From: Ruegeria arenilitoris
Lineage (GTDB): Bacteria > Pseudomonadota > Alphaproteobacteria > Rhodobacterales > Rhodobacteraceae
DNA: 64,000 bases
Reading direction: 5' to 3'
Assembly: GCF_013035315.1 (NCBI RefSeq)
Contig: NZ_WQHP01000008.1
Span: forward strand, 62,001 to 126,000
Positions 23,801 to 29,421 of this stretch are shown in pieces (the stretch's first letter is position 1; the number at the start of each line of letters is the position of its first letter). The notes beneath the pieces were generated by a model that did not search any database, was not told the origin of the DNA, and saw nothing but the letters and a program-made list of their open reading frames with translations. A program made the translations under genes and the position numbers.

Positions 23801-24610
23801 TTACTGGTCTTTGCCCAGCATGTGATCCATTGAGATCGCTGGCTGATCGCACCCAGCCTCACCCACGATCTTGGCAGGGATACCGGCAACGGTCTTGCAG
23901 GCGGGAACCTCTTGCAGAACGACCGAGCCTGCCGCGATCCGGCTGCAATGGCCAACCTCGATGTTGCCCAGAACCTTGGCGCCCGCACCGATCAGCACAC
24001 CATCGCCGATTTTGGGATGACGCTGCTCTTCTTCCTTGCCGGTCCCGCCAAGCGTCACCGAATGCAGCATCGAGACATTGTCGCCGACGATGGCCGTCTC
24101 ACCGATTACAATGGAATGGGCGTGGTCGATCATGATCCCCTTGCCGATCTTTGCAGCAGGGTGGATGTCGATCCCGAAAATCTCGGACGAGCGCATCTGG
24201 AAGAAATACGCAAGATCATAACGCCCCTTGCGCCACAGCCAATGCGCCACGCGATAGGCCTGCATGGCTTGATACCCTTTGAAGTACAGAATCGGCTGCA
24301 ATAGCCGGTGGCAGGCCGGGTCGCGTTCGTACACGGCCATCAGGTCGGCACGCGCGGCTTCGATCAACGACGGATCGTTGGCATAGCTTTCGTCCACGAT
24401 CTCGCGCAGGACCATCATCGACATTTCGTTCGAGCACAGCTTGGCGGCAATCCGGTAGGACAGTGCGCGTTCCAGGCTGCGGTGATGCAGAATACAAGCG
24501 TGCACCAACCCGCCCATCAGCGGCTCTTTTTCCACGGCTGCCTGAGCTTCGGCCGTGATACGATCCCAAACAGGGTCGACAGGGGTCACATGACTGCGCG
24601 TTTCGAACAT
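23801..24610 (-). CDS. cysE: Serine O-acetyltransferase
   Basis: First step of cysteine synthesis, acetyl-CoA plus L-serine to O-acetylserine. The 269-residue protein has the helical N-terminal SATase domain (DPVWDRITAEAQAAVEKEPLM, LSYRIAAKL) and the C-terminal hexapeptide left-handed beta-helix (IDIHPAAKIGKGIMIDHAHSIVIGETAIVGDNVSMLHSVTLGGTGK), with the catalytic His/Asp in this block. The tail DHMLGKDQ may be the peptide that binds cysteine synthase. To my recollection, cysE flanks the GTA cluster in Rhodobacter, which fits the GTA remnant 0.7 kb away. Confidence 0.95.
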   Translation of the reverse strand: MFETRSHVTPVDPVWDRITAEAQAAVEKEPLMGGLVHACILHHRSLERALSYRIAAKLCSNEMSMMVLREIVDESYANDPSLIEAARADLMAVYERDPACHRLLQPILYFKGYQAMQAYRVAHWLWRKGRYDLAYFFQMRSSEIFGIDIHPAAKIGKGIMIDHAHSIVIGETAIVGDNVSMLHSVTLGGTGKEEEQRHPKIGDGVLIGAGAKVLGNIEVGHCSRIAAGSVVLQEVPACKTVAGIPAKIVGEAGCDQPAISMDHMLGKDQ

Positions 24611-24694
24611 GGCTTTTCATCCTTTGCTGCGCCTAGGATGCCATTTAGTGGCAAAAAGACCAAACGCAAACCCGTGATCTGCAAGGTAACGGAA

Positions 24695-25033
24695 ATGAAT
24701 GAAACGCAATTGGCCGGGTTCAAGACCCGGATACTCGCCCGATTGGCCGAGCTGGCCGAGCATTCAGCTTTGGGCCATGAAGCTCAGGCGGTGGTCGATC
24801 TGGACCAACAGGCCGTTGGGCGCCTAAGCCGGATGGACGCCCTTCAAAACCAAGCCATGGCCAAGGCACAGCAGGCAAATCGGGACGTTGAGACGCTCAG
24901 ATTAAGGGCTGCTTTGGACCGGATTGAAGAGGGCGAATTCGGCTATTGCGAGGACTGCGGCGAAGAAGTTCCGGTCGGTCGACTGGAACTGGACCCCGCC
25001 GCCAGCAAATGTGTCAGTTGCGCCTCCGGGTAA
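24695..25033 (+). CDS. TraR/DksA-type C4 zinc-finger protein
   Basis: A 112-residue DksA-like protein. A coiled coil carries a DxDxxA-type tip (DLDQQAVGRLSRMDALQ), followed by a C4 zinc finger CEDC...CVSC with a 17-residue gap. Such proteins enter the RNA polymerase secondary channel and alter transcription, often together with ppGpp. It is shorter than E. coli DksA (151) and resembles the small DksA-like proteins of Rhodobacterales. The ATG at 24695 is chosen by homology; the frame is open back to 24308 but that part is antisense to cysE. Its 3' end overlaps the convergent small gene by 20 bases. Confidence 0.82.
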   Translation: MNETQLAGFKTRILARLAELAEHSALGHEAQAVVDLDQQAVGRLSRMDALQNQAMAKAQQANRDVETLRLRAALDRIEEGEFGYCEDCGEEVPVGRLELDPAASKCVSCASG

Positions 25034-25310
25034 CGTGGAAGTGAACCAGACACCGCAGAACCATCTCAAAACACTGACAATATTGCGGGTCGTCAAAGTT
25101 GGGTTCGTCGGCCAAGGACCGAGTACGCGCCGCCATCATCAGGGATCCATTGCCAAACAGCGGATGCAATCGCCCGGTCTGGCCGACATGAATGTCGGCC
25201 AGTTCAGCTTCGCGCAGCATCGTGGTGCACAGATTTTCACGAGACGCAGGCGGCGCGTTCAAAAGAACCCGCGCCGCCGCACTGACATCGCCATGCAAGA
25301 TGGGTCGCAT
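25014..25310 (-). CDS. Small GTA-linked conserved protein (DUF7742-like)
   Basis: A 98-residue protein starting MRPILHGDVSAAARVLLNAP, with the body GQTGRLHPLFGNGSLMMAARTRSLADEP and DDPQYCQCFEMVLRCLV. From memory it resembles the short conserved gene that follows the GTA megatron/host-specificity gene in Rhodobacteraceae (DUF7742). The ATG at 25310 is eight bases after the GTA fragment's stop, so it keeps the original linkage. The open frame continues upstream into the GTA fragment, but the family start is clear. Its own function is unknown. The 3' end overlaps the DksA-like gene tail-to-tail. Confidence 0.7.
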   Translation of the reverse strand: MRPILHGDVSAAARVLLNAPPASRENLCTTMLREAELADIHVGQTGRLHPLFGNGSLMMAARTRSLADEPNFDDPQYCQCFEMVLRCLVHFHVTRRRN

Positions 25311-25317
25311 AAGCCCC

Positions 25318-26472
25318 TCAACCGACAGTAGTACGTGCGAATGGGCCCGGCCCAAAACTGGCTGAGATTTGGGCAACGTCGACCGAATAACTGCCGGTTA
25401 CACCATCCGCGACCTTCATCCCCGGCGCATAGATCCATCGCGGTTCTGATAATACTTGTTCGCGCACAATTCCGCCGTTGACCCGGATTCTCAGCAAATA
25501 GGATTCGGTCTCTTCCCCTAATGGGACATCCAACCCTTCCCAGCTGTCGTCGTCCAACCGGGTGCGGCGAATCCATGAAATCTGGTCGCCTTGCGCGGTC
25601 GCCGTGGCCCCTAGATGCACCGGAGCGTAGGGCCTCAGCCCATTGCCGTCGAATGTATGCACCTGATGGACAAAGGACGGGTCATCATACGCTCTGGTAC
25701 CCGGCCCGATGCGGTAGTTTTTGGTCACGCGCCGTTCCGACCGCAACAGTCCGGTCTGAAAGACCCGCTCATCCAACAGAACAATGGTCGAGCCATCGGG
25801 CCAGACATCCGGCATGGCTGCATCTGTTCCCAACTGACCACGCAACCGACCACTGAGGGCATAGACCCCCTGATCCTCTAGCGAAGCCGCAGCAAACTGG
25901 AACAGCTCCCAATTGCCAGGGGTGCCATCGCCGATTGCGGCCAGGTTTGCGCCGTTCAACAAAGCCTCGCGCGGCCGCGATTCCAACAGGCCATCAACCA
26001 GTCGCACGCGCAATGGTGCGCCATCATCCCAAAGCCCAACGCTGGCCCGCCGCAACGGCGTTTGGGTGGTACCGACGACGGCCTGGGCGGAGATCACTTC
26101 CTGCAACGCATAGTCCTCGTCATTGGTCGCGGAATACACCGCAGCGCTGCCGGGCCACGGGTCCGCAGTGACGGCAATGTAAGGCGGGTGCGGAACTTCC
26201 GATCCGGTCAACAACGGCAAGTCCAGGAACACAGGGAAGACCGGAACCGGGGCGACAAAGGGCTTGGTCGAAACCCTGTCGTCAGACAAATCTGAGGGCG
26301 CGTAAATCCCCGGCTCGATCCGAACAGCGTCGGCCAACTGCATCTCGGCTTGCTCCAGCCGATCGATGCGGAATAGAACGCCCTGCTCTTCCCCGTCCAG
26401 AGTGATGACATCCCCCGCACCGATATGGGCCAGTGATGGCGGCAGCGCAAAGCGGACGGTCTCGCGCGACAC
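25318..26472 (-). pseudogene. C-terminal fragment of GTA baseplate megatron/host-specificity protein (gp15)
   Basis: A 384-residue frame whose sequence (VSRETVRFALPPSLAHIGAGD, later LRGQLGTDAAMPDVWPDGS and YRIGPGTRAYDDPSF) corresponds to the last third of the roughly 1300-residue gene transfer agent TIM-barrel host-specificity protein, gp15 of RcGTA. The frame continues five codons (LSEAR) before the GTG at 26472, then hits TAG near 26488. The whole N-terminal two thirds and gp1-gp14 are absent upstream. No frameshifts are evident, so the loss may be recent or the fragment may still be translated. Identification is from memory of the family, with good confidence. Confidence 0.75.
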
Positions 26473-26487
26473 GCGCGCCTCGCTCAG

Positions 26488-26954
26488 CTAGAGTTCACCC
26501 GACCTGTCGAGTCGTTCATCCTGTTGAAGGTTTGGTGCCCTCCGAAGAAGTGGCGAAGGAATCGGCGTATGTGCTCAACCTCGTCTCAAAGGGATTACTA
26601 CTCAAGGTCGCTACTCCCGAAGACTAGACACAAAATCTAAACACGTGACGAACGTTCTGTTTCACTGAATAACTGAATATCCAAAGCGCCCCCCGCTTGA
26701 CATTTAACGTCTGAACCTGCATTCGCCCAGGATTGAAGCGCCAATGCGTGAACTTTCGCGGATTGACCCGCCCCATAAGCGCGCTAAACACCTACCAGTT
26801 CCCCATCACGCAGGGTTCTTTACGCGACGGCCGGATGCCGCAGGAACCGCCTGCCCGTCCCGAGGTCTCGCGGAAACCCTGCCGGTCACGCGCTGCATGG
26901 CCCACAAAACACGTCTGCAGGGCCAAAGCCTTGTGGATCACAAAGGATAGTTAT
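26488..26954. other. Gene-poor scar upstream of GTA fragment
   Basis: About 465 bases with no supportable gene between the broken end of the GTA fragment and the DEAD-box helicase start. A plus-strand frame to 26627 (ending GLLLKVATPED) and an upstream extension of the helicase frame from 26733 are both without family support. No terminal inverted repeats or transposase remnants were recognised by eye. It contains the helicase promoter. Confidence 0.55.
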
Positions 26955-28217
26955 TTGTTCGACTTCGACATGCTGGGCCTCACCCCGGCCCTGAATGACG
27001 CGTTGAAACGCGCCAATTTCTCTCAACCGACACCGATTCAGAACCAGGCCATTCCGTTGGCTCTGAACGGCCATGATGTTCTTGGATTGGCGCAGACCGG
27101 CACCGGCAAGACGCTGGCCTTTGGCCTTCCGCTGATCGACCACCTGCTGGCGCAGCCCGGTAAACCAGCCCCTAAAACCGCGAAGGCATTGATCCTCGCG
27201 CCAACGCGCGAACTGGTCAACCAGATTGCAGAAAGCCTGCGCAACCTGACCCAAAAGACCAGGCTGCGCGTTGCCACAGTGGTTGGCGGGCAATCCATCG
27301 GCAAACAAATCTCGTTCCTGTCGCGCGGGACTGACATTCTGGTCGCCACCCCAGGTCGCCTGATCGACTTGATGGAGCGTGAAGCCGTTGACCTCAGCCA
27401 GGTACGCCATCTGGTTCTGGATGAGGCCGACCAGATGTTGGACATGGGCTTTATTCACGCGTTGCGCAAGATCGCTTCCAAGCTGGGCACCCCGCGCCAA
27501 ACCATGCTGTTCTCGGCAACCATGCCCAAGCAGATGGAAGAGATCAGCCAGGCCTACCTGACGAACCCGCACCGCGTGCAGGTTTCGCCTCCGGGCAAGG
27601 CGGCGGACAAGATCACGCAATCGGTGCACTTCCTCAGCCGCGCCGAGAAACCCGCAAAGCTGCGTGAGGTCCTGTCCGCGGATATGGGCGCGCTGACCCT
27701 GGTCTTTGCGCGCACCAAACATGGTGCGGAACGCCTGATGAAAGATCTGGTCAAAGACGGCTTCAATGCGGCCTCAATCCACGGCAACAAAAGTCAGGGC
27801 CAGCGTGACCGCGCCATCAAGGCGTTTCGCGCGGGTGAAATCAACGTGCTGGTCGCCACCGATGTGGCCGCACGCGGCATCGATATTCCCGGCGTTGCCT
27901 ATGTTATCAACTATGACCTACCCGAAGTGCCCGATAACTACGTTCACCGCATCGGACGTACCGCGCGCGCCGGGCGTGAGGGCGAAGGCATCGCGTTCTG
28001 CGCCCCCGATGAATTGGATCAGTTCATCCAGATTCAAAAACTGATGAAGATCGAAATTCCCGTGGCAAGCGGCACCATGCCGGCTGAGGCCGAACCCAAG
28101 AAGCCCCGCAAACGCGGCGGTTTCCGCGGGCGCGGGGTCAAGCCAAAGGCAGCGAACGGAGCATCAAAGCCCGGCCCCTCCAAACGCCGCAGGCCCCGCC
28201 GTCGCCCGGCAGCGTAA
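26955..28217 (+). CDS. DEAD-box ATP-dependent RNA helicase (RhlE-like)
   Basis: RNA helicase of about 420 residues. Motifs in order: Q motif FSQPTPIQNQAIP, Walker A AQTGTGKT, PTREL, DEAD, SAT, ARTKHGAERL, and HRIGRTARAG. A basic tail follows (about residues 375-420, KKPRKRGGFRGRGVK), typical of the RhlE group that remodels ribosomal or messenger RNA. I chose the TTG at 26955 because AAGGA stands 8 bases before it and it adds only FDFD to the family start; ATG 26970 is the alternative. The longer frame from 26733 adds an unlike N-terminus. Confidence 0.93.
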   Translation: MFDFDMLGLTPALNDALKRANFSQPTPIQNQAIPLALNGHDVLGLAQTGTGKTLAFGLPLIDHLLAQPGKPAPKTAKALILAPTRELVNQIAESLRNLTQKTRLRVATVVGGQSIGKQISFLSRGTDILVATPGRLIDLMEREAVDLSQVRHLVLDEADQMLDMGFIHALRKIASKLGTPRQTMLFSATMPKQMEEISQAYLTNPHRVQVSPPGKAADKITQSVHFLSRAEKPAKLREVLSADMGALTLVFARTKHGAERLMKDLVKDGFNAASIHGNKSQGQRDRAIKAFRAGEINVLVATDVAARGIDIPGVAYVINYDLPEVPDNYVHRIGRTARAGREGEGIAFCAPDELDQFIQIQKLMKIEIPVASGTMPAEAEPKKPRKRGGFRGRGVKPKAANGASKPGPSKRRRPRRRPAA

Positions 28218-28260: not shown

Positions 28261-29421
28261 TTAGTTGCTTGAGCTGTTTCTTTCCGCCTCAATCTCACGC
28301 CACTTGGCGACGTTGCGGTTATGCTCCTGCAGAGTTTCTGCGAATGCGTGGCCCCCGGTACCGTCTGCAACAAAGAAGATAAAGTCGGTCTCTTCCGGTG
28401 CGACGGCGGCCTCAAGGCTGGCCAGTCCGGGGTTTGCAATTGGTGTAGGTGGCAAACCGTCGATCACATATGTATTCCAAGGCGTTGCCCGACGTAGTTC
28501 ACTCCGGCGCAGACCACGGCCAAGCGTGCCCTGACCCTTTGTGACGCCATAAATCACCGTTGGGTCCGTCTGCAGCCTCATGCCTTGCTCAAGGCGATTA
28601 ACAAAGACGCTAGCGACCTGACCCCGCTCATTCGGTACGCCGGTTTCCTTTTCGATAATCGACGCAAGGATCAGCATCTCTTCTGGGTTGCTGATGGGCA
28701 AGTCATCCTGACGGCTTTCCCAAACGGCATTGATGCGCAGTTGCTGCTTATCCTGCATCTCTTGCAAGACAGCAGTTCGGTCATCACCGGGGGTAAGCTC
28801 ATAGCTGTCGGGTGCCAACATGCCCTCGGCAGGAATCTCCGCGATCTCGCCAGTCAACGCATCGATTGCTTGCAAGCCCTGCGCGACTTGCCACGACGTC
28901 ACGCCTTCGGCCACCGATACGCGATAGCGAGTGTCGGCCTCCTCACGCTTTTGGGTGTATTCCGCAGGGGTTTCTTCGTCGGTTACGTCAAAGGATGCAA
29001 TTTCCACGAAATCCAGCGTTGCCGGATCCAGTTCGCGGACACGCGTCTGAATACGGGTGACACCAATGCGATACTCGATCTCAGACCCGCAGGTACTTGC
29101 CCCGCTGCTGGTGATTTCGTCGATGATCTGTTCCATCGACGCGCCTTCGCGCACCAGAAAGCTGCCCGCCTTAAGCTGCTGGGCCTTATCGGTATAGTCC
29201 GCCGCCATACGGAAGATTGTCGCGTTCGTGATCGCGCCCTGATCTGCCAACTCATTGCTGACGCGGGTCATGTTCGAACCGCTTCTGACTTGCAGGCAAA
29301 TGGCGGTTTCCAGCGGACCCTCGGCCTTATACTGCGACTGCCCCCAGACGATCAGCCCGCCCATCAGGAACAGACCAACGATCAACAGGGTCAGTGCGTT
29401 CGAAGCAAGAGCCCGCCACAT
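28261..29421 (-). CDS. mltG: Endolytic transglycosylase MltG
   Basis: Membrane-anchored lytic transglycosylase of the YceG family that cuts nascent glycan strands and sets their length. The 386-residue protein has a membrane helix at about 8-28, a LysM-like region, and the catalytic domain with LILASIIEKETGVPNERGQVASVFVNRL (catalytic Glu in EKET), LQTDPTVIYG, TPWNTYVIDGLPPTPIANPG and the C-terminal FFVADGTGGHAFAETLQEHN. Its start abuts the fabF stop directly, so the two are one transcript, an order common in Rhodobacterales. Confidence 0.95.
   Translation of the reverse strand: MWRALASNALTLLIVGLFLMGGLIVWGQSQYKAEGPLETAICLQVRSGSNMTRVSNELADQGAITNATIFRMAADYTDKAQQLKAGSFLVREGASMEQIIDEITSSGASTCGSEIEYRIGVTRIQTRVRELDPATLDFVEIASFDVTDEETPAEYTQKREEADTRYRVSVAEGVTSWQVAQGLQAIDALTGEIAEIPAEGMLAPDSYELTPGDDRTAVLQEMQDKQQLRINAVWESRQDDLPISNPEEMLILASIIEKETGVPNERGQVASVFVNRLEQGMRLQTDPTVIYGVTKGQGTLGRGLRRSELRRATPWNTYVIDGLPPTPIANPGLASLEAAVAPEETDFIFFVADGTGGHAFAETLQEHNRNVAKWREIEAERNSSSN

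Follow-up and report, generated by a model that had tools for sequence, protein, structure and literature searches.

A gene transfer agent remnant in Ruegeria arenilitoris and the large deletions at the same locus across its genus

The remnant and its intact relative

The window, by which we mean the whole 64,000-nucleotide stretch of DNA analysed, spans positions 62001-126000 of contig C22 in a 4.39-Mb genome (23 contigs, 99.99% complete). Its minus strand carries, at 23801-26487, the last 389 codons of gp15, the megatron gene of the gene transfer agent (GTA), along with a DUF7742 gene and cysE. The features of the locus are:

23801..24610, minus strand: cysE, serine O-acetyltransferase (TIGR01172, over its cut-off)
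24695..25033, plus strand: DksA/TraR-type C4 zinc-finger gene, a conserved neighbour (start codon inferred)
25014..25310, minus strand: DUF7742 gene (E 3.9e-36), by position in the place of RcGTA g16, the last gene of the GTA operon
25318..26487, minus strand: C-terminal fragment of GTA gp15, covering the fibre-binding domain and the last part of the central one (Pfam, 6tba and NCBIfam matches)
26488..26794, no strand: deletion junction with filler (comparison with relatives)
26931..28217, plus strand: DEAD-box helicase, the conserved gene at the far side of the GTA cluster (Pfam and comparison with G022)
28261..29421, minus strand: mltG/yceG (profile match)

The gp15 fragment is read as a 384-aa ORF (25318-26472) with a GTG at 26472 as a possible start, in a frame that is open from 26487. 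The original prediction had taken this ORF for the C-terminal third of gp15, and profile and structure matches agree: the fragment aligns without large gaps to residues 921-1303 of the RcGTA chain 6tba_8A (E 9.4e-125), to positions 917-1298 of 1299 in the NCBIfam model GTA_megatron (NF048004, 396.6 bits), to the end of Phage-tail_3 (E 2.9e-7), and to Rcc01698_C (PF23666, E 1.2e-32), where 112.6 bits against a cut-off of 27 identify the C-terminal domain. The NF048004 score lies below the whole-protein cut-off of 800 bits, as for a homologous sequence that is a fragment. Pfam finds no GTA TIM-barrel domain (PF13547) in the fragment, while that domain is complete in the gp15 of the relative G022. 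The sharp end described earlier at LSEAR-V, with a stop upstream, is also real, as an in-frame TAG lies immediately 5' of that motif and gp15 homology ceases there or a few codons past it. Domain borders follow the portions of PMC7296036 that describe the megatron.

The small gene expected to trail gp15 is the DUF7742 gene, which starts 7 bases past the gp15 stop. Its equation with g16 relies on the position of that gene in the RcGTA operon as given in the relevant part of PMC9552610, where yceG is likewise the upstream neighbour of the RcGTA cluster. The claim that cysE comes next was right about the identity of that gene and overlooked the DksA/TraR-type gene on the opposite strand, between DUF7742 and cysE.

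In the nearest relative, Ruegeria sp. R14_0 (G022), the DEAD-box helicase and the DUF7742 gene likewise flank the locus, with gp1-gp15 intact between them and a gp15 of 1322 aa. The window locus sits in the same slot as the relatives' cluster, sharing the helicase and DUF7742/DksA neighbours. It matches G022 on both sides of the gap (91% identity on the helicase side, 88.6% on the gp15 side), with both flanks colinear, and is without ~14.8 kb relative to it. The synteny comparison that the original prediction had proposed thus speaks for the first of its two alternatives, that this strain lost its GTA. A panB-like gene also lies in the stretch of G022 that is missing here; most of the 54 Ruegeria genomes compared below are without it at that place, so it was possibly not lost in the window.

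A search of the rest of the genome for gp1-gp14 and the N-terminal two thirds of gp15 had been proposed as well. A 15.2-kb DNA query across the G022 cluster retrieved from the window genome a 66-bp overlap only (40 of 75 first-look candidates scored). As protein queries, the gp15 fragment matched only itself in this genome, and neither gp5 nor a join of gp2 101-185 with gp15 662-745 matched anything; the missing gp genes other than gp2, gp5 and gp15 were searched there as DNA only. With that scope (DNA, and for gp2 and gp5 also protein), terminase, portal, capsid and tail genes are absent from both window and genome, there is no trace of a second cluster, and the statement that no other GTA gene remains applies genome-wide. 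These results make extremely improbable the other course that had been suggested, a break of the cluster within gp15 through inversion or translocation, with the remainder elsewhere: the genome yields no gp2, gp5 or other gp15 protein and no cluster DNA, and the flanks are colinear, so the loss was a deletion. At the level of sequence comparison, it is shown that, once the lineage had split from R14_0, a single deletion of ~14.8 kb removed gp1-gp14 together with the initial ~930 codons of gp15; judged from the DNA, the window is a simple deletion rather than an inversion, a translocation or a duplicate.

The junction holds filler of 190-290 bp, depending on the aligner (unaligned at 26502-26794, or at 26502-26693 in a more permissive comparison). 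The longer form has ~51% G+C, occurs just once in the genome, and matched nothing in 60 relatives, plasmids or the compared loci. A Pfam match of the filler to a viral glycoprotein (E 0.037) was under the cut-off and was dismissed as chance.

That the loss was recent holds on the scale of species: it followed the split from G022, to which rpoBC is 96% identical, and holin-like (PF11351) and DUF6456 genes are present and still open on another contig of the window genome. We take the holin-like gene to be the GTA holin and the DUF6456 gene to be the GafA activator. Substitutions in the gp15 fragment numbered 26 nonsynonymous and 44 synonymous in the window vs 14 and 52 in G022 with one outgroup (p=0.059), and 20 and 16 vs 9 and 13 with three outgroups (p=0.42); pairwise dN/dS to G022 is 0.087. 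The fragment is thus only weakly relaxed, which suggests that the loss is young or that the remnant is constrained. The lineage would be unable to make GTA particles, since capsid, portal and terminase are missing. It may still receive GTA DNA, as the retained cysE, holin-like and DUF6456 genes suggest, and continued receipt by non-producers is expected in a passage of PMC10883770.

Large deletions across Ruegeria

We mapped gp1-gp15 at the locus in all genomes of a 54-genome Ruegeria set. An internal GTA deletion is present in 18 of the 54, in nine junction classes, namely the window, a junction shared by ten genomes and seven found once each. The original prediction had not anticipated such a series in the genus. 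The junctions besides that of the window are:

Shared junction gp2-185::gp15-662: G001, G004, G016, G021, G025, G026, G041, G045, G046, G047
Single deletion in G011: gp2-108/gp14-27
Single deletion in G018: gp2-261/gp15-19
Single deletion in G029: gp6-34/gp15-938
Single deletion in G033: gp3-224/gp15-777
Single deletion in G036: gp2-142/gp15-1234
Single deletion in G039: gp6-196/gp15-1023
Single deletion in G084: gp2-212/gp15-1221

Measured against near intact relatives, the deletions are 7.6-14.8 kb long (16 of 18 measured, being eight of the ten with the shared junction and all others; the remaining two have that same junction), and every one of them takes out at least gp7-gp13. No GTA capsid gene was found anywhere in 16 of the 18 deleted genomes, G041 giving a 35% match only, and the remnants in G029 and G039 retain gp5; over the whole set, gp5 occurs at 90% identity or more in 38 genomes. 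For two breakpoints falling uniformly over 15.3 kb, the probability that the deletion reaches 7.6 kb is 0.25, and that all nine classes do so is 4e-6, by a crude null whose threshold was picked from the data.

Undeleted clusters are mostly in good order. By tblastn, 28 of 36 are clean, and a clear frameshift in a GTA gene occurs in two of the 34 seen whole (G014 in gp4 and G037 in gp2; G013 and G030 are the two not seen whole). A stop at gp4 codon 3 in G017 is probably a start variant, and a repeated gp2 end is the sole oddity in the G032 cluster. Deleted and undeleted species are intermixed on the rpoBC tree (14 changes), which is in line with the cheater idea as set out in part of PMC10883770.

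A mechanism that would account for this size spectrum combines cost and repair. GTA-null cells would be spared the cost of lysis; small lesions would be restored by GTA DNA from intact neighbours, at a payload of ~4.5 kb; and lasting null alleles would be those deletions too long for one particle to refill. Short lesions would then be erased and deletions beyond the payload kept, a repair that we infer from the rarity of small lesions. Background for it comes from sections of two papers: RcGTA carries ~4.5 kb and restored a 710-bp deletion far better than one of ~4.5 kb (PMC9690577), and null alleles are described as restored by GTA in a paper which itself argues that this repair does not make up for the producers killed by lysis (PMC6209664). 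Taken as one explanation, a deletion in the window postdating the split from R14_0, 17 other large deletions in Ruegeria and persistence governed by repair make an account that we consider very probable.

The main rival to it is that selection favours removal of the whole costly, lytic operon, with GTA repair of small lesions playing no part, which we hold possible and somewhat doubtful. The loss of gp7-gp13 in all 18 deletions suits it, as does the lysis cost discussed in a portion of PMC6209664. A stop in the activator or the terminase would also save much of the cost, yet clear frameshifts are confined to the two whole clusters named above. That rarity is itself countered by the DUF6456 gene, where small lesions do occur: four of the 18 deleted genomes have a broken copy, against two of the 36 undeleted ones (p=0.087), where its state was read directly in 10 of the 36 and judged indirectly in the rest. 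The broken copies among homologues of this gene (G000:C1:456484-456891) include those of G023 and G012, in which the cluster is undeleted.

The C-terminal piece of gp15 is kept in 54 of 54 genomes, so one may ask whether it has been domesticated together with DUF7742 to serve some separate function, and was retained for that reason. The open frame of the window fragment and its low dN/dS would fit. We regard this as improbable, as G036 and G084 retain only 88 and 101 codons, the G039 fragment contains a stop, and DUF7742 is absent in G085 and interrupted by a stop in G012 (codon 96 of 98) and G030.

Three observations concern the clusters themselves. The gap between gp2 and gp3 (L031:5661-6410 and 36 other Ruegeria clusters) measures 557-2971 bp in 37 genomes and holds differing, unrelated ORFs on either strand (SDR-, cation-efflux-, cyclase- and isochorismatase-like by eye, and unknown ones), with repeated gp2 3' ends inside it in G014 and G032; it looks like a variable cargo slot within the GTA cluster. 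In G028 and G042 (L112, L133), dS is 0.12-0.14 for gp15 and DUF7742 (0.13 for gp15) vs 0.22 for rpoBC, which hints that GTA DNA has recently passed from one Ruegeria species to another. Groupings of gp5 differ by eye from those of rpoBC; a division into two capsid types was abandoned, as the split is not clean (9 changes on the rpoBC tree vs a shuffled mean of 12).

The gp2::gp15 chimera

The shared junction joins the N-terminal ATPase half of the terminase (residues 1-185, Walker A to the Walker B 'DE') in frame to gp15 from residue 662 to the end. The gp2 side ends in '..FDAAWVDE' (Walker B) and the gp15 side continues with 'xGCAAIDKG'; the crossing seems to lie within a Glu codon common to both. 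In 27 genomes from 16 Rhodobacteraceae genera, 15 of them besides Ruegeria, such a chimera stands where the GTA cluster would be (e.g. L054:8648-11152, L070:8648-11158, L136:16597-19101, L214, L243 and L244); the junction is codon-identical in all 27, and none of them showed a separate gp2 or gp15. A family-wide search covered 394 genomes, almost every one from a separate genus; 16 of them contain this junction within a single ORF and 30 gave no match. In a second genus, 13 genomes comprise 3 chimeras (one of them among the 16) and 10 intact clusters; the genus of G301 is represented by G301 alone.

The chimera is open throughout in 23 of 26 complete cases (the exceptions being G046, G139 and G397; the twenty-seventh runs off its contig), junction to stop measures 642-654 codons in 24 of those 26, and Walker A is intact in 24 of 25 aligned chimeras. 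In L054, Pfam recognizes Terminase_6N, the end of GTA_TIM, Phage-tail_3 and Rcc01698_C in one protein. By mechanical count, an ORF of at least 85 codons stands in the place of gp1 in all 27 genomes, and in six carriers from other genera the next gene is a 234-236-aa ORF that starts 5 bases inside the chimera's end, with a DUF2793 domain (Pfam) in both of the two tested.

For the sister chimeras of G001 and G025, dN/dS is 0.03-0.07 on three parts, like that of intact pairs; this demonstrates constraint on the chimera provided that the fusion was present before the two diverged. Relaxed selection was sought by branch tests on nine of the ten Ruegeria chimeras, all but that of G045, with mixed results: they gave p=0.012-0.033 on GTA totals for G047, G001 and G025, and p of 0.09-1 for G004, G016, G021, G026, G041 and G046. 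Two structure models (mean pLDDT 57 and 64) offered no fold rationale for the junction; in the second, the terminase part is well folded at 87-184 and most of 185-293 is not, a difference of little weight, as just two alignment rows cross the junction.

The exact chimera pattern is absent from IMG/VR. Phage and plasmid records gave four matches over at least 80% of the junction query (46-49% identity among the matches listed); the three of these that were examined are full-length gp15-type proteins rather than chimeras. Separately, 591 stretches in IMG/VR contigs filed as viral encode relatives of a GTA-type terminase, 80 of them (L283-L362) being 66-88% identical; many of these contigs may be GTA clusters rather than phages.

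Within Ruegeria, the chimera is scattered beside intact kin and requires 8 changes on rpoBC (deep branches weak), the same number on each of two trees of which the quick one is 97 log units worse than the fuller. Protein trees (90 rows, 25 of them chimeras) call for 16 changes on the gp2 part and 13 on the gp15 part. We give serious weight, a little short of calling it probable, to one old chimera allele that moved between species and whose arms local intact alleles then replaced as far as the junction. The identical junction codon in 27 of 27 favours this, as does the lack of any other Ruegeria junction within 20 codons (the nearest gp2 end is at codon 212, with a different gp15 end). GTA segments also seem to move between species, as in G028 and G042, and on the fuller rpoBC tree the chimeras of G021, G046 and G045 split off early within the main group. 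A single clade is compatible with the initial 300 nt of gp15 (p=0.17) and with 300+300 nt around the junction (p=0.15), but the final 300 nt of gp2 reject it (p=1e-5), and a clade of the ten Ruegeria chimeras is rejected on whole arms (gp15 p=1.6e-4, gp2 p=0.004). In the second genus, a three-chimera clade is rejected on gp15 (p=2e-52), with p=0.059 on gp2. Directly past the junction, moreover, chimeras are no more alike than chimera and non-chimera (permutation p 0.81-0.99).

Three candidate clues were discarded. Greater likeness among chimeras in the first 60 nt past the junction (0.182 vs 0.259) was a tblastn edge effect and disappeared once the sequences were compared in exact frame. The quick rpoBC tree had raised the possibility that G045 acquired its chimera by transfer, which found no support (p=0.82). 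A long DNA repeat as driver of the junction was rejected, as exact identity at the site is just 2-8 nt in 34 undeleted genomes, where the same regions contain 757-1601 exact repeats of at least 8 nt, the longest being 12-17 nt. Either a specific or strongly selected route gives rise to this fusion again and again, or a single old allele has persisted while recombination replaced its arms. Tentatively, the chimera might be a selected functional gene, for instance a GTA-tied inhibitor or decoy, reached by codon-precise convergence, or an old polymorphism of producers and non-producers common to several genera; we see this as a minority possibility. Either way, a codon-identical chimera across genera is a second regularity, unpredicted by neutral GTA decay. 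Titles and abstract beginnings of open-access PMC literature offered nothing on the chimera or on a size limit of GTA loss alleles.

Comparison with known systems

Ruegeria offers a natural series of GTA loss alleles, in which the window is a clean loss beside an intact sister. We take the authors of PMC10883770 to be Kogay and Zhaxybayeva (2024). Why costly, lytic GTAs persist is treated as an open question in parts of PMC6209664 and PMC10883770, and the size spectrum makes testable the idea that null alleles are repaired through GTA transfer as long as they fall below the size of its payload.

Three known systems bear on the locus. With the RcGTA-like cluster (alphaproteobacterial type I; RpGTA of Ruegeria pomeroyi) it shares the gp15 C-terminus, DUF7742 in the place of g16, and the cysE and yceG/mltG neighbours, whereas it is without gp1-gp14 and ~70% of gp15, and no particle would be possible. 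With the megatron Rcc01698 (PDB 6tba, 6teh) it shares the aligned C-terminal residues given above, whereas it lacks the iris/penetration, adhesin-like and peripheral domains, by the borders in the megatron description of PMC7296036. Like the pseudogenised or lost clusters read as cheater lineages in PMC10883770, it is a GTA-null lineage beside a GTA-positive sister species; what differs here is that the lesions are mapped: deletions span 7.6-14.8 kb, small lesions are few, and many relatives share a codon-identical junction. The window locus is thus a clean GTA loss of a kind already known, and its interest stems from the deletion series to which it belongs.
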